Assembly: GCA_000991135.1 (NCBI GenBank)
Contig: LBST01000001.1
Span: 1-64,000, forward strand
Source: Candidatus Roizmanbacteria bacterium GW2011_GWC1_37_12
Lineage (GTDB): Bacteria; Patescibacteriota; Microgenomatia; UBA1406; GWC2-37-13
Length of the DNA stretch: 64,000 nucleotides
Reading direction: 5' to 3'
Of this stretch, positions 18,805-57,750 are shown piece by piece (positions within the stretch are counted from its first letter, which is position 1; each line of letters starts with the position of its first letter). Position numbers and translations under genes: made by a program. The notes beneath the pieces were generated by a model that had not been told where the DNA came from, did no database searches, and was given only the letters and a program-made list of their open reading frames with translations.

Positions 18805-19083
18805 CTATAAATTTGCCTTAGTTTGTGTAAGTTTTTCAATCAACCACATTCGAGAAAGAGTCGTCGGATTAATTCCTTTGGCTTTGGCGATTTCTTCAAT
18901 CTTTTTCTTTATTGACTTTTGAATCCTAATTACAAGTACTTCTTTTTTTTCTTTTTCAATTAACTCTAAGTCTTCCAGAGCAACCTTTTCACCTCTCATT
19001 AACGGAGATGTGTCGTGAGTATCCCAGAAATCAGCTTCCTCGTCTAGCGTTTTAAATGGTGGCATTGGTTTTGGTTTGTACAT
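18805..19083 (-). CDS. brnA: BrnA-type antitoxin
   Basis: A 92-aa protein. It contains MPPFKTLDEEADFWDTHDTS near the start, the hallmark of BrnA/CopG antitoxins, and a ribbon-helix-helix segment (~48-80: VLVIRIQKSIKKKIEEIA, then GINPTTLSRMWLIEKL). BrnA dimers bind the operon promoter and neutralise BrnT. Its 5' end overlaps brnT by 32 nt, so the two are co-translated. Confidence 0.85.
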   Translation of the reverse strand: MYKPKPMPPFKTLDEEADFWDTHDTSPLMRGEKVALEDLELIEKEKKEVLVIRIQKSIKKKIEEIAKAKGINPTTLSRMWLIEKLTQTKANL

Positions 19084-19330
19084 AATATTCTCTCCTTTCT
19101 TTTCGACTCATGTCACGAGCCGAAAAAACATATAAATTTTTGTTATTTTCTTTAGAAACAATTACAATCATCATTCTGCCCTTATTAGTTAAACCATACA
19201 ATTTTTTTCTATCCGAATAAGAATCTATCTCAAATTTCTTATTTTTATAAGCTTCCTCAACCTCATTAACTGTCACATTGTGTTTTCTGATATGGTCTAT
19301 GTTCCATTCATTCCAAATTAGCTTTTTCAT
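19052..19330 (-). CDS. brnT: BrnT-type ribonuclease toxin
   Basis: A 92-aa RelE-fold toxin. The order KLIWNEWNIDHIRKHNV, VNEVEEAYKNK, GRMMIVIVSKE and VFSARDMSRKERREYY matches BrnT, an endoribonuclease that halts translation. The start at 19330 is chosen because residues before it would be encoded by a palindromic promoter region. Toxin-first gene order is typical of brnTA. A second pair lies at 43576-44110. Confidence 0.85.
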   Translation of the reverse strand: MKKLIWNEWNIDHIRKHNVTVNEVEEAYKNKKFEIDSYSDRKKLYGLTNKGRMMIVIVSKENNKNLYVFSARDMSRKERREYYVQTKTNATI

Positions 19331-19360
19331 ATTGTAATACAATGTAATACATAAAGTCAA
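19331..19360 (-). promoter_or_regulatory. brnTA promoter/operator
   Basis: The perfect palindrome ATTGTAATACAAT (19331-19343), followed by a partial second copy GTAATAC, sits directly upstream of brnT. TTGACT on the minus strand (19355-19360) is a candidate -35. Autoregulation by BrnA through this site is inferred from the family. Confidence 0.6.
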
Positions 19361-19385
19361 GTCCATATTATTTTATGAACTTTAA

Positions 19386-19410
19386 GGACAGGATAATATC
19401 CTGTCCCTAC
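19386..19410. repeat. GGACAGGAT palindrome
   Basis: GGACAGGAT/ATCCTGTCC arms followed by CTAC; an intergenic member of the variable-core family. Confidence 0.75.
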
Positions 19411-19434
19411 ATTGTCTATAGACAATACGCTACA
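19411..19434 (-). promoter_or_regulatory. TTGTCTATAGACAA palindromic site (site B)
   Basis: The perfect palindrome ATTGTCTATAGACAAT (19411-19426) plus the flank TGTAGCGTA read on the minus strand. The same composite precedes the RAYT gene (21174-21198), and the palindrome alone precedes a mini-operon (57692-57705). Here it lies about 80 nt upstream of brnT. Confidence 0.6.
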
Positions 19435-19480
19435 AAACTATAGTTTCAGAAGATTACAAAAGCATAAAATTTGCGAAGTC

Positions 19481-21116: not shown

Positions 21117-21184
21117 ATGATTCGATAGATATCGAACAAATTTAATTGTTTTGATCTTCTAAATTATTATTGATGTAGCGTATA

Positions 21185-21218
21185 GTCTATAGACAAAACT
21201 AAAAAAACAGAGAATAAT
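21185..21218 (+). promoter_or_regulatory. RAYT promoter with site B at the -35
   Basis: GTCTATAGAC (21185-21194) supplies TAGACA (21190-21195) as the -35 box. After 17 nt, AATAAT (21213-21218) is the -10, ending 6 nt before the ATG at 21225. The upstream flank TGTAGCGTA matches the site at 19411-19434. Confidence 0.6.
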
Positions 21219-21224
21219 TTCTTT

Positions 21225-21875
21225 ATGAAAAGAAAAGAAAAATTTTGTCAAGGAGAAATTTATCACGTCTTCAATAAAAGCATCGCTAATTACGGAATTT
21301 TTAGCAAGATTGATAACGGCCAACAATTTATTAATCGACTTTTTTATTACAATAGCAGTTTAGAACTAGAAGCTTTTTCAAAATTCTTAGAAAAAAATGA
21401 TGATTTTACTTGTGAGAATTTGCTTTTGCCAACAGAATGTTCTTACATAAAATTTTTAGCTTTTAATATTATGCCCGATCACTATCATCTTTTAATAAAA
21501 ATTTTTAAAGATAATATTTTATCTAAATATATGAGCGATTCAGAAAATAGTTTTAGTAAGTTTTTCAATACTAAATATGAACGAAAAGGACCGTTATGGC
21601 AATCAAGTTTCAAAGCAGTCAAGGTCAAAAATAATGAACAATTGCTGCACGTTTCTCGCTATATACATCTTAATCCCACTACAAATAATTTAGTTAATAA
21701 ACCTGAGGATTGGGAATTATCTTCTTACCGCGATTTTATTAACAATCCAAAGATTCTAAAAGAAATTATCACAGAAATTTCTATTAAAGATCCTGAAATT
21801 TACAGGAAATTTGTTGAAAATAGAATTGATTACCAAAAAAAATTAAGAATGATAAAAAGGCTCATTTTAGAGTAG
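21225..21875 (+). CDS. REP-associated tyrosine transposase (Y1/HUH)
   Basis: A 216-aa single-strand DNA transposase of the IS200-like RAYT group. The HUH pair is H86-Y-H88 in MPDHYHLLIK, and the probable catalytic Tyr is Y146 in SRYIHLNP. KGPLWQSSFKAV and the C-terminal EDWELSSYRDF are group hallmarks. RAYTs cut and move REP hairpins rather than classic IS ends. Full length and intact. Identical REP copies bracket the gene, and its promoter carries a palindrome shared with other accessory genes. Confidence 0.9.
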   Translation: MKRKEKFCQGEIYHVFNKSIANYGIFSKIDNGQQFINRLFYYNSSLELEAFSKFLEKNDDFTCENLLLPTECSYIKFLAFNIMPDHYHLLIKIFKDNILSKYMSDSENSFSKFFNTKYERKGPLWQSSFKAVKVKNNEQLLHVSRYIHLNPTTNNLVNKPEDWELSSYRDFINNPKILKEIITEISIKDPEIYRKFVENRIDYQKKLRMIKRLILE

Positions 21876-22001: not shown

Positions 22002-22025
22002 TTTTGTAGGTTATAACCGACTGAC
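22002..22025 (+). promoter_or_regulatory. TAGGTTATAACC site (site A) before the XRE gene
   Basis: TTTTGTAGGTTATAACCGACTGAC, reported as positions 22002-22025 with core TAGGTTATAACC. The final CTGACT acts as -35 box for TATTAT at 22044-22049 (17-nt spacing). Two further copies precede mini-operons at 34148-34171 and 42086-42109. Confidence 0.7.
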
Positions 22026-22048: not shown

Positions 22049-22068
22049 TACCCCTTATATGAGGGGTA
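22049..22068. promoter_or_regulatory. Palindrome over the XRE start codon
   Basis: TACCCCT (22049-22055) and AGGGGTA (22062-22068) flank the ATG at 22059. This is a candidate autorepression operator, or a hairpin masking the start. Confidence 0.5.
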
Positions 22069-22277
22069 ATTTTTATTACAAAAGACTCGGGGAAAATATT
22101 GTTAGCGCCCGTAAAAAAATTAAGCTTTCCCAATACAAAGTGGCAACTTTATCTGATATTGATCGCAGTTATCTCGCCGAAGTTGAAGAAGGTAAGGCTA
22201 ATCCGTCGGTAAAATTTCTCCTTCGAATTGCAAAAATTCTAAAAATAAAAGTCGGCGACCTTCTAAAAGATTTGTAA
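22059..22277 (+). CDS. XRE-family regulator resembling controller (C) proteins
   Basis: A 72-aa single-domain HTH_3 protein. GENIVSARKKIKLSQYKVAT and DRSYLAEVEEGKANPS, then LLRIAKILKIKVGDLL, match the five-helix fold of phage repressors and of C proteins that time restriction-modification genes. C proteins bind palindromes next to their own -35 box; here a palindromic site lies exactly there and recurs before two small-membrane-protein operons, so it may regulate all three. It is about 130 nt after the RAYT unit. No R-M genes are adjacent. Confidence 0.82.
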   Translation: MRGNFYYKRLGENIVSARKKIKLSQYKVATLSDIDRSYLAEVEEGKANPSVKFLLRIAKILKIKVGDLLKDL

Positions 22278-33818: not shown

Positions 33819-33932
33819 TTAATGTTTATTTGATTGCACTTTCATGGCAATAAAAAGAAGTAAACTAATTATCATTATTAGACTCCAAGATAAAGATGCA
33901 TTATTCGCAATTTGTTCCCAATTCCAATTCAT
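33819..33932 (-). CDS. 37-aa single-pass membrane protein (mini-operon 1, second gene)
   Basis: MNWNWEQIANNASLSWSLIM begins the protein; one membrane helix (~14-30) and a short basic tail. Its ATG overlaps the TGA of the 60-aa gene before it (ATGA), so it is translationally coupled. Same position and size class as the second genes at 42326 and 57445. Confidence 0.6.
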   Translation of the reverse strand: MNWNWEQIANNASLSWSLIMIISLLLFIAMKVQSNKH

Positions 33933-34111
33933 ATTTTTTTCACCCCTTTAACAGATATCATAGCAAATATTAATGAAAAAATCCCATATATTAAAAACTT
34001 AAAGGTTGAGACTATCCCAATTGGATTAATAAAAGCTGCCCCAAACCAAAGAACTGCCATATTCGAATAGAAATCTGCAAATAATTTTAACTGTAAATTG
34101 GTTAATTTCAT
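33929..34111 (-). CDS. 60-aa two-helix membrane protein (mini-operon 1, first gene)
   Basis: The protein starts MKLTNLQLKLFADFYSNMAV, then LWFGAAFINP, followed by a second helix (~38-55) and a basic end (GVKKI). LxxxxDFxxNxAxxWFxA is shared with the first genes at 57448-57648 (LVAEFFSNIGVAWFTA) and 42141-42320 (LISDFCLDISKAYFIA), so the three are paralogues. Both termini probably face the cytoplasm. Function unknown. The promoter carries site A at its -35. Confidence 0.65.
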   Translation of the reverse strand: MKLTNLQLKLFADFYSNMAVLWFGAAFINPIGIVSTFKFLIYGIFSLIFAMISVKGVKKI

Positions 34112-34147
34112 TCTTCAAGCAAAGAATAATATTTTTTCTTTTGTTTC

Positions 34148-34171
34148 GTCAATAGGTTATAACCTACAAAA
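34148..34171 (-). promoter_or_regulatory. Site A at the promoter of mini-operon 1
   Basis: Read on the minus strand: TTTTGTAGGTTATAACC, then TATTGAC; the TTGACG at its end serves as -35, with a TATTAT/TTATTC -10 region 15-17 nt on. The core TAGGTTATAACCTA is a perfect palindrome. Confidence 0.65.
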
Positions 34172-42085: not shown

Positions 42086-42134
42086 TTTTGTAGGTTATAA
42101 CCTATTGACAATAGGATTTGATTTTGAATAAATT
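42086..42134 (+). promoter_or_regulatory. Site A and promoter of mini-operon 2
   Basis: Site A (42086-42109) ends in TTGACA (42105-42110), which is also the -35. TAAATT (42129-42134) after 18 nt is the -10 and ends 6 nt before the ATG at 42141. CCTATTGACAATAGG forms a second palindrome over the -35. Confidence 0.7.
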
Positions 42135-42140
42135 ATTCTC

Positions 42141-42320
42141 ATGATTTTTAATAGAAGAACAAGGTCGTTGATTTCAGATTTTTGCTTAGATATAAGCAAG
42201 GCTTACTTTATAGCATTATTCGTCACTCAAAAAGCTGCCAACTTGAATTTGATTGACTTGTCTATTGGCATATTTAATGTTATTATTTTCTTGTACTTTT
42301 CTAGAAAAATTTTAACTTGA
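42141..42320 (+). CDS. 59-aa membrane protein (mini-operon 2, first gene)
   Basis: Paralogue of the 60-aa and 66-aa proteins at 33929 and 57448. It begins MIFNRRTRSLISDFCLDISK, then AYFIALFVTQ, with a second helix (~41-54) and a basic end (SRKILT). Leaderless start behind a -10 box. Function unknown. Confidence 0.6.
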   Translation: MIFNRRTRSLISDFCLDISKAYFIALFVTQKAANLNLIDLSIGIFNVIIFLYFSRKILT

Positions 42321-42325
42321 TTTAT

Positions 42326-42445
42326 ATGGATCAAACATCTTACAGGCTATTTATTTTAATGGGACTCATTTTTGTAATAATTATTAGTTTGCTAATGATA
42401 ATTGATAAAAAACGTGAGCAACGATCAGCTAGTCGCCATAGTTAA
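42326..42445 (+). CDS. 39-aa single-pass membrane protein (mini-operon 2, second gene)
   Basis: MDQTSYRLFILMGLIFVIII opens the protein: one membrane helix (~8-26) then a strongly basic tail (DKKREQRSASRHS). It starts 5 nt after the first gene and overlaps the third gene by 32 nt. Confidence 0.55.
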   Translation: MDQTSYRLFILMGLIFVIIISLLMIIDKKREQRSASRHS

Positions 42446-42518
42446 TTCTCCTTATACGTACTTGATTCTCCTCATCATCGCTATTTCCCTTATGTATCTT
42501 GCTGGAAAAAAGAAATAA
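42414..42518 (+). CDS. 34-aa single-pass membrane protein (mini-operon 2, third gene)
   Basis: Starts at GTG within the second gene. It has a short polar head, NSPYTYLILLIIAISLMYLA and a GKKK end. The NxPY-helix-basic layout matches the 30-aa protein at 57258-57350 (NPNPYVLAIISLITFLAAF). Confidence 0.5.
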   Translation: MSNDQLVAIVNSPYTYLILLIIAISLMYLAGKKK

Positions 42519-55541: not shown

Positions 55542-55587
55542 TTTGTTATTCAATTGTTATTTGTGTTTTGTTATTTGGTATTTACTT

Positions 55588-56166
55588 ATGGAGCGAACTT
55601 TGATCATAATAAAGCCTGACGCCGTCAAGCGTGGCTTGATTGGTAAAGTCATTGAAACTTTTGAAAACGTCGGACTCAAACTAATGGCCGCCAAGATGCT
55701 CCGACCAAGTTCCGACGTCATTAAAAATCATTACCCTGGAACACCTGTTTGGATAAAGGAAATGGGAGAAAAAACCATTGCTTCTTTTAAACAAAGTGGA
55801 GGAAATGTCAAAGAAAAAATGGGCACAGACGACCCACAGAAACTAGGCCAGTTTGTTTATGACCGGCTAGTCAAATACTGGATGGAAGGACCAATTATCG
55901 TTATGATATGGAGTGGACCAGATGCCATTCAGATCGCCAGAAAACTAAGAGGTCATACTATCCCATTACTATCTCAAACTGGCACACTGCATTCTGACTA
56001 TTCTTTTGATTCCTCTACTCTGTCTTCGAGTCTAGACCGCGTCGTCAAAACTTTTGTTCACGCGTCGGGCAGTAAAGAAGAAGCCGAGAGAGAGATCAAA
56101 TACTGGTTCCCAAAAATGGAATTTAAAAATTATGAAAGAGAAGTTGATTCTTTGTATTTAGTATAA
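55588..56166 (+). CDS. ndk: Nucleoside diphosphate kinase, long form
   Basis: A 192-aa NDK: TLIIIKPDAVKRGLIGKVIE, then IIVMIWSGPDAIQIARKLRG and FVHASGSKEEAEREIKYWF with the phosphorylated His. About 40 residues longer than the usual ~150 aa; the extra lies between the first helices (VKEKMGTDDPQKLGQFVYDR) and after TIPLLSQTG. The start at 55588 is the ATG before the conserved MERTLIIIKPD. Tandem with a second, diverged ndk. Confidence 0.88.
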   Translation: MERTLIIIKPDAVKRGLIGKVIETFENVGLKLMAAKMLRPSSDVIKNHYPGTPVWIKEMGEKTIASFKQSGGNVKEKMGTDDPQKLGQFVYDRLVKYWMEGPIIVMIWSGPDAIQIARKLRGHTIPLLSQTGTLHSDYSFDSSTLSSSLDRVVKTFVHASGSKEEAEREIKYWFPKMEFKNYEREVDSLYLV

Positions 56167-56170
56167 CAAC

Positions 56171-56238
56171 GATTCTGGATGCGGCCTCCGGCCTTACCAG
56201 AATGACGTCATTCTGGGGAGCGAAGCGACTCCAGAATC
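56171..56238. repeat. CATTCTGG/CCAGAAT element between the ndk genes
   Basis: 68-nt double hairpin: GATTCTGG...CCAGAATGAC and GTCATTCTGG...CCAGAATC, with GCGGCCTCCGGCC inside. This copy is intergenic. Confidence 0.85.
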
Positions 56239-56246
56239 TAATAAAT

Positions 56247-56837
56247 ATGAATAAACAAAAAGCATTACTCATAATAAAGCCCGACGGCGTTCAGCGAGGA
56301 ATTATTGGAAAAATTGTCAGCCGTTTTGAAACTGTTGGCCTAAAAATCATCGGACTAAAATTCGAGTGGGCAACTAAAGAAAAAATCATTGCTCATTATC
56401 CGGAAACCGAGGCTTGGTTTGCTAAAGTCGGACAACGGACGTTGACAAATTACGAGAAGAAGGGACTGGACGCAAGAAGCGTGTTTAAAACAAACGATGC
56501 TGTTTCAATCGGAAAAACCGTTAAAGGTTGGCTAATCACCTATTTACAAGAGTCCCCTGTTTTTTTAGCAGTTGTTGAAGGCTACGACGCCATAGAAATT
56601 GTCCGTAAACTATCCGGCAATACCATCCCTGTCCTGGCTGCGCCTGGGACAATCAGAGGTGATTTTAGCCATGACACGATTGACTTGGCTAATGAACAAA
56701 ACAGACCCTTAAGAAATATCATTCATGCTTCAGACACGGTTGAAGACGGAGAAAAGGAAGTCAACCTTTGGTTTAAACCGGAAGAACTATTTTCCTACGA
56801 AACTGCCGGAGAGAAATTTATGTACTCCATGAAATAA
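56247..56837 (+). CDS. ndk: Nucleoside diphosphate kinase, second long form
   Basis: A 196-aa NDK paralogue: ALLIIKPDGVQRGIIGKIVS, VFLAVVEGYDAIEIVRKLSG, GTIRGDFSHD and NIIHASDTVEDGEKEVNLWF (active-site His). It has the same enlarged layout as its neighbour but is strongly diverged, so the duplication is old or the pair was acquired together. The two subunits could form a hetero-oligomer. Confidence 0.88.
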   Translation: MNKQKALLIIKPDGVQRGIIGKIVSRFETVGLKIIGLKFEWATKEKIIAHYPETEAWFAKVGQRTLTNYEKKGLDARSVFKTNDAVSIGKTVKGWLITYLQESPVFLAVVEGYDAIEIVRKLSGNTIPVLAAPGTIRGDFSHDTIDLANEQNRPLRNIIHASDTVEDGEKEVNLWFKPEELFSYETAGEKFMYSMK

Positions 56838-57257: not shown

Positions 57258-57350
57258 TTATTTCTTCGAAAGACCGCGGTAGACGTAGATAAAAGCGGCT
57301 AAAAAAGTAATTAGAGATATTATTGCTAAGACGTATGGATTTGGATTCAT
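57258..57350 (-). CDS. 30-aa single-pass membrane protein (mini-operon 3, third gene)
   Basis: MNPNPYVLAIISLITFLAAF, then a short basic tail RGLSKK. Its ATG overlaps the TGA of the preceding gene (ATGA). Counterpart of the 34-aa protein at 42414-42518. Confidence 0.55.
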   Translation of the reverse strand: MNPNPYVLAIISLITFLAAFIYVYRGLSKK

Positions 57351-57445
57351 ATATTTTTTTTAACGATTAAATAACCAACTACTAATAAAACGGCACTTGC
57401 GATACCTGCTACGCTAAAAACTATAACTAAATATTCAAATGTCAT
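57347..57445 (-). CDS. 32-aa single-pass membrane protein (mini-operon 3, second gene)
   Basis: MTFEYLVIVFSVAGIASAVL, then LLVVGYLIVKKNI: one helix with a basic end. It starts 2 nt after the first gene and is coupled to the third by ATGA. Confidence 0.55.
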   Translation of the reverse strand: MTFEYLVIVFSVAGIASAVLLVVGYLIVKKNI

Positions 57446-57447
57446 AA

Positions 57448-57648
57448 TTATCTTTTAATTAATTTTACACCAACTAACAAAAAAATGGAACTAAAGAAAA
57501 TCCCCCAAATAATAGAATAAAAAATCTCGTTTATATTTCTTCTCTGATCTATAAAAACTCCAATCACTCCAGCTGTAAACCAAGCGACACCGATATTTGA
57601 AAAAAATTCCGCTACTAACTGTCTTTCAGTCTTAATAAAACTGCTCAT
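57448..57648 (-). CDS. 66-aa two-helix membrane protein (mini-operon 3, first gene)
   Basis: MSSFIKTERQLVAEFFSNIG, then VAWFTAGVIGVF, a short loop with DQRRN and a second helix (~44-61) ending GVKLIKR. Paralogue of the proteins at 33929-34111 and 42141-42320. The ATG at 57648 is preferred over readings that pass through the promoter. Function unknown. Confidence 0.65.
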   Translation of the reverse strand: MSSFIKTERQLVAEFFSNIGVAWFTAGVIGVFIDQRRNINEIFYSIIWGIFFSSIFLLVGVKLIKR

Positions 57649-57669: not shown

Positions 57670-57705
57670 TTTATAGACTTTATGAACTCTTTTGTCTATA
57701 GACAA
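57670..57705 (-). promoter_or_regulatory. Site B and promoter of mini-operon 3
   Basis: On the minus strand TTGTCTATAGACAA (57692-57705) provides TAGACA as -35. After 17 nt, TATAAA (57670-57675) is the -10. The start codon is 21 nt further on. Confidence 0.65.
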
Positions 57706-57750
57706 TGACCTACCAAATTGCTATTTTAGATCGATGGAGCAGCAAAATTT

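Follow-up and report, generated by a model that had tools for sequence, protein, structure and literature searches.

What are the clusters of overlapping genes for membrane proteins of only 30-66 residues that recur in the genome of Candidatus Roizmanbacteria bacterium GW2011_GWC1_37_12, and under which condition would their products act? Three such mini-operons, here named loci A, B and C (33819-34111, 42141-42518 and 57258-57648), lie in the window, the stretch of 64,000 nucleotides that was analysed, and all of their reported reading frames were found in the sequence. Each starts with a gene for a helical hairpin of about 60-70 residues, followed by one or two genes for single-pass proteins of about 30-40 residues:

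Locus A, gene 1: 33929..34111, minus strand, 60 aa, two-helix membrane hairpin family.
Locus A, gene 2: 33819..33932, minus strand, 37 aa single-pass protein, ATGA overlap with gene 1.
Locus B, gene 1: 42141..42320, plus strand, 59 aa, hairpin family, DFCLDISKAYF clade.
Locus B, gene 2: 42326..42445, plus strand, 39 aa single-pass protein, ATG start (TTG at 42317 also possible), 5-nt gap after gene 1.
Locus B, third ORF: 42414..42518, plus strand, 34 aa from GTG at 42414, or 38 aa from TTG at 42402.
Locus C, gene 1: 57448..57648, minus strand, 66 aa, helical hairpin, AlphaFold2 mean pLDDT 91.
Locus C, gene 2: 57347..57445, minus strand, 32 aa single-pass protein, 2-nt gap after gene 1.
Locus C, gene 3: 57258..57350, minus strand, 30 aa single-pass protein, 4-nt overlap with gene 2.

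The original prediction described three paralogous mini-operons of tiny membrane proteins with related first genes. All three loci were borne out, and their first genes align pairwise at 25-39% identity and are all recovered by a family profile, but the genome total is five copies rather than three: A, B, C, C3:43646-43819 and C9:9910-10092 (E 3e-20 to 2e-6 with a 52-member family profile of which these five copies are themselves rows). A pattern search became possible with a subset of the family, the initial alignment being too divergent for it. The predicted linkage by overlaps or short gaps was present at each locus (ATGA in A, a 5-nt gap in B, a 2-nt gap and a 4-nt overlap in C), and the genes do fall below annotation limits, as had been said. 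A third gene common to loci B and C, also predicted, is doubtful, since that of locus C is a member of a widespread gene-3 family whereas the third ORF of locus B (NSPYTYLILL...) looks closer to the second gene of the DFCLDISKAYF clade (loci L046 and L047); only 11 columns aligned when the gene 2 and gene 3 profiles were compared. This ORF, overlapping locus B gene 2 by 32-44 nt depending on its start, is the least certain of the eight genes. Locus C gene 1 could also start further upstream, at TTG 57705, but this is the less likely choice. Elsewhere in the window, two adjacent plus-strand genes 35 nt apart (55543-56166 and 56202-56837) both read as nucleoside diphosphate kinases and come after a thymidylate-kinase-like gene.

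AlphaFold2 predicts, with high confidence, that the first gene product of locus C folds as a helical hairpin. In 75 of 78 single-pass partners, the stretch following the helix carries more positive charge than the one preceding it, which predicts an N-out/C-in orientation. Scans of the small proteins against Pfam, PHROGs, NCBIfam and PADLOC gave no match above cut-off, and no defence family was found to fit them. The best match of a PDB profile search had an E value of only 0.32, Foldseek with the gene 1 model returned generic helical hairpins only, none with E <0.001, and Rfam across the 64-kb window found tRNAs only. Phage-derived holin or lysis cassettes, the "holin-like" option of the original prediction, are resembled in size and topology only; relatives were absent from IMG/VR contigs, phage records and plasmids, neither a PHROG family nor phage genes nearby in the window were found, and the operons are conserved in sister species, so that a holin origin is unsupported and barely credible.

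The tiny membrane operons are real, conserved genes. An absence of homologous clusters in related genomes, or an equal accumulation of synonymous and nonsynonymous changes, had been named as signs against a system; instead, homologous operons in relatives were found to keep the gene order and the short overlaps, and pairwise dN/dS was 0.07-0.30 for each of gene 1, gene 2 and gene 3, values to be taken as "well below 1" because several dS values are near saturation. The recurrence of the same gene order in other genomes, together with these ratios, makes the operons more than chance, and codon comparison indicates that all three genes are under purifying selection. The family extends across Microgenomates (Roizman-, Gottesman-, Curtiss-, Beckwith-, Levy-, Collier- and Daviesbacteria) and occurs outside CPR in WOR-1/Saganbacteria. 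Within the genus, matches were found in 15 of 20 genomes at E <= 0.05, with 0-7 copies per genome, and in a sample of the phylum 21 of 381 genomes had a family match at E <= 0.001. The family is thus sporadic, accessory, multicopy and fast-diverging. Orthologues in sister species have flanks that can be aligned, so that inheritance appears mostly vertical; one copy, locus L305, is truncated.

Several copies are of interest in themselves. The full three-gene operon is present in WOR-1 and Saganbacteria (L208, L210), where gene 1 shares 42-51% identity with the Roizmanbacteria query, and a transfer between phyla is possible. A 568-bp stretch with one two-gene copy (L347:2748-3315, compared with L348) is 90% identical between two species with flanks at about 80%, possibly by recent exchange. 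A class-level relative (L243, G072:C8:800-4400) has at least two two-gene sets in tandem on less than 2.5 kb, each with a repeated sequence upstream. In a Beckwithbacteria contig (L211:2852-4580) the gene just downstream of the three-gene mini-operon is radA, which functions in recombination and has a link to transformation.

When the modules would be expressed is suggested by their upstream regions, which lie beyond the coordinates given in the original prediction and hold the most telling evidence, not noticed there. One conserved promoter element, TTTTGTAGSKTATAGTCYATWGACA, whose end is the -35 box, precedes all five mini-operons of the genome; in the window it was located as follows:

Promoter element, locus A: 34146..34171, minus strand, TTTTGTAGGTTATAACCTATTGACGA, ending in the -35 box, with the ATG 34 nt downstream.
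Promoter element, locus B: 42086..42111, plus strand, TTTTGTAGGTTATAACCTATTGACAA, with the ATG 29 nt downstream.
Promoter element, locus C: 57692..57717, minus strand, TTTGGTAGGTCATTGTCTATAGACAA, with the ATG 43 nt downstream.

An identical 20-mer, GTAGGTTATAACCTATTGAC, lies upstream of loci A and B (0 matches in 100 shuffles of the window), and locus C has a variant of it. Genome-wide, the pattern TTTGTAGNNTATNNNCTATNGAC gave 39 matches at <=3 mismatches (32 at <=2) versus 6 for the reversed control, and about 33 element sites were counted in the genome. Alignment of 103 element sites from the loci collected showed a conserved upstream stretch TCTAAA..., then the core TTTTGTAG..TATAgTC with a TTGACA/TAGACA -35 box and, about 17 nt further, a TATAAT-like -10 box; at locus B the promoter reads TTGACA, an 18-nt spacer and TAAATT. 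The boxes look sigma-70-like, with an additional upstream element. Element, -10 box and ATG are regularly spaced, the ATG following the element by 28-30 nt in many cases, and such genes would be leaderless at that distance. Longer distances occur at locus A, at locus C and before recA (about 60 nt or more).

The other genes behind this element define its context. In the same genome it precedes comEA (HHH_3 + SLBB) followed by comEC and a ComEC-type metallo-beta-lactamase gene, as well as comM, dprA, recA, and a GIY-YIG gene followed by radC. Its accessory targets there include genes for Y1/IS200-like transposases, 23S-IVP four-helix proteins, TrpR-like, BrnT-like and LTD proteins, and two XRE regulators; one of the element-bearing Y1/IS200-like transposase genes is followed by those for a membrane-anchored SNase and recG. 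Three further element-bearing genes lie in the window:

BrnT-like toxin gene: region 19052-19436, element 19436-19414, minus strand.
Y1/IS200-like transposase gene: element 21172-21194, gene 21225-21875, plus strand.
72-aa XRE regulator gene: element 22003-22025, gene 22059-22277, plus strand.

A position weight matrix was trained on sites of this genome only, and the genus counts were taken from other genomes, whose orthologues are not independent. The element was found before the comEC operon in 14 of 14 cases (own genome counted), recA in 11 of 12 (one weak), comM in 14 of 17 (two weak), dprA in 7 of 11 and the mini-operons in 27 of 39, while the control genes lon (0/12) and hrcA (0/14, one with almost no upstream sequence) had none. 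The chance of all five own mini-operons lying behind the element is about 5e-8, given about 33 sites and roughly 1000 genes, a gene number that is itself estimated. Based on the cis-element shared with comEA-comEC, comM, dprA and recA, the mini-operons very likely belong to the natural-transformation (competence) regulon of the genus and probably act during the uptake of foreign DNA. Five genomes of the genus, namely the own genome, G001, G011, G013 and G019 (loci L081, L095, L113, L117 and L234), also have, next to dprA and on the other strand, a gene for an XRE regulator of about 72 aa with the element in front; it is a candidate regulator of the regulon and may regulate itself.

This control has its limits in phylogenetic range. 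Among the 12 genus copies lacking the element, seven (L246, L247, L248, L249, L251, L262 and L298) form a distinct three-gene subtype, and another, L061, retains a truncated element, which runs up to the start codon that was chosen. Order- and class-level relatives showed no such element at their com genes, and outside the taxonomic family of this genome no mini-operon copy was seen with it; inspection by eye of operons in other taxonomic families revealed no obvious substitute upstream. The mini-operon family can therefore work without this control, as in the 12 genus copies and all those seen outside the taxonomic family.

The presence of recA among the element-bearing genes raises an alternative, a regulon that responds to DNA damage in an SOS-like way and in which the mini-operons encode damage-induced membrane toxins of the TisB kind. 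The overlap of the element with the -35 box, as repressor sites do, would agree with this. However, comEA-comEC is a consistent target of the element, the genome (94% complete) contains no recognisable LexA, and the element is missing upstream of lexA in six relatives. The sole PF01726 match of the genome is weak, with position and length as in sister-genome matches that read as HrcA. True lexA genes occur in a few relatives (G009, G013, G021, G023, G061 and G071), with other sequences upstream; in G009 a degenerate lookalike of the element does lie close to lexA, but it points to a divergent gene reading like a Fur-family regulator. Membership in a LexA/SOS regulon was consequently rejected, and the damage-response explanation is judged improbable. 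The related suggestion of a stress toxin in the original prediction loses LexA/SOS control, which is disfavoured, and finds no fitting toxin family. For a type I toxin-antitoxin pair of the Fst/Hok/TisB type, one member matched the Fst toxin profile at E 0.16 only and Rfam showed no known antitoxin RNA in the window, where a new antisense RNA may still be encoded.

Membership in the competence regulon could also mean that the small proteins are accessory subunits of the uptake machine, assembling with ComEC/ComEA or the pilus base and helping DNA to cross the membrane. Co-regulation with comEA-comEC through the shared element is expected from such subunits, and so are small membrane proteins with conserved gene order and overlaps, but G005, G010 and G013 keep an element-bearing comEC and have no mini-operon match, and other genomes hold up to 7 divergent copies, whereas a core subunit would be expected near-universal and single-copy. 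The retention of comEC in genomes without mini-operons, and the accessory, multicopy and fast-diverging nature of the family, argue against a core role in uptake and leave this explanation distinctly unlikely. Selfish or hitch-hiking modules, which borrow the competence promoter for expression when DNA arrives and render no service to the cell, are somewhat better placed, though still unlikely. They would account for a promoter common to Y1 transposase, GIY-YIG, 23S-IVP and TrpR-like genes, the sporadic distribution, the truncated copy and the presence in WOR-1/Saganbacteria; the module contains no recombinase, though, its sister-species orthologues in alignable flanks point to mostly vertical descent, and its genes are under strong purifying selection.

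The best overall explanation, which we hold to be moderately probable, is a small membrane module made in the competent state and acting as an effector or gatekeeper. Each mini-operon would encode a very small inner-membrane module of one 2-TM hairpin and one or two single-pass N-out/C-in proteins. For most modules of the genus, transcription would start from a promoter carrying the competence cis-element, often so close to the first gene that the transcript has hardly any leader or none, and the products should accordingly appear in competent cells. From the upstream sequences we infer that the element regulates the mini-operons, and from conserved order, overlaps and topology, which fit the original suggestion of membrane-complex subunits, we infer that the proteins form a complex. 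The hairpin might oligomerize in the membrane, with its one or two partners modulating the oligomer, which could limit further DNA entry, act on sibling cells, or check competent cells that took up the wrong DNA. The specific role of competence-induced membrane effector or gatekeeper is put forward tentatively. It is suggested by modules that are accessory, multicopy and divergent and that share the regulon with other accessory genes, namely those for Y1 transposases, GIY-YIG, 23S-IVP four-helix proteins, TrpR-like, BrnT and XRE proteins; many divergent yet constrained copies with conflict-type neighbours in the regulon fit an effector or gatekeeper. With distribution and company in the regulon as its basis and no family match behind it, the effector role is one we propose with clear reservation, and the original prediction was right to label function as inference. 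A somewhat stronger case, though one short of probable, can be made that these modules are heteromeric membrane machines of a new, minimal class, built from a 2-TM and a 1-TM protein and in some operons a second 1-TM protein. Such a machine would work specifically in the competent state of CPR bacteria, where it would gate the entry of DNA or act on sibling cells, and the modules would count among the most numerous accessory genes of a Microgenomates competence regulon that had not been described before.

DNA-uptake genes are present in most CPR bacteria, with ComEC in 86% of CPR genomes (PMC6744442), but how com genes are regulated there, and which genes are expressed with them, is little known. 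The element links comEA-comEC, comM, dprA and recA to a defined gene set, so that the competence regulon of a largely uncultured lineage becomes readable from genomes. It also gives a first functional context to a membrane protein family small enough to escape annotation, and places transposases, nucleases and the dprA-linked XRE regulator in the same circuit. In the open literature searched, no description was found of a competence regulon element or of such small-protein members in CPR bacteria; the regulon is of a known type, and the element and its small-membrane-protein members are apparently undescribed.

Among known systems, the 2-TM effectors of SLATT / DUF4231 and DUF6722 share the hairpin form with gene 1, with scattered matches; membership was rejected since all of these scored below the curated cut-offs (best E 0.04-0.24), and no SMODS/SLOG partners were noted by eye beside the operons. 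ComI of B. subtilis, a plasmid-encoded single-pass membrane protein of about 30 aa that inhibits competence, offers an analogy for a gatekeeper; it differs in being a single, plasmid-borne gene. The com system itself is already known in CPR (PMC6744442, PMC10633639). In the portions of these reports considered here, ComEC without a fused metallo-beta-lactamase is among the core genes (PMC6744442) and natural transformation was shown in Saccharibacteria (PMC10633639). The same core genes are found here, with ComEC and the MBL protein encoded separately in the own genome, whereas those portions give gene content and function, with no regulatory element or small-protein members described.

The late-competence regulon of streptococci includes cibABC, a two-peptide bacteriocin with its immunity protein (PMC5295010). 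Its very small products, whose promoters are of the class that also drives uptake and recombination genes, and which comprise two peptides plus a partner (CibAB/CibC), resemble those of the mini-operons, but streptococci use the sigma factor ComX where sigma-70-like -35/-10 boxes with an upstream element are found here, and the mini-operons have no visible leader peptide, dedicated exporter or sequence relation to cibABC. A two-peptide bacteriocin of the CibAB type was rejected, as the proteins and the gene list of the window showed no double-glycine leader and no exporter beside the operons. In conclusion, cibABC would serve by analogy as a precedent in regulation, rather than in homology, for very small proteins produced together with the machinery of transformation.
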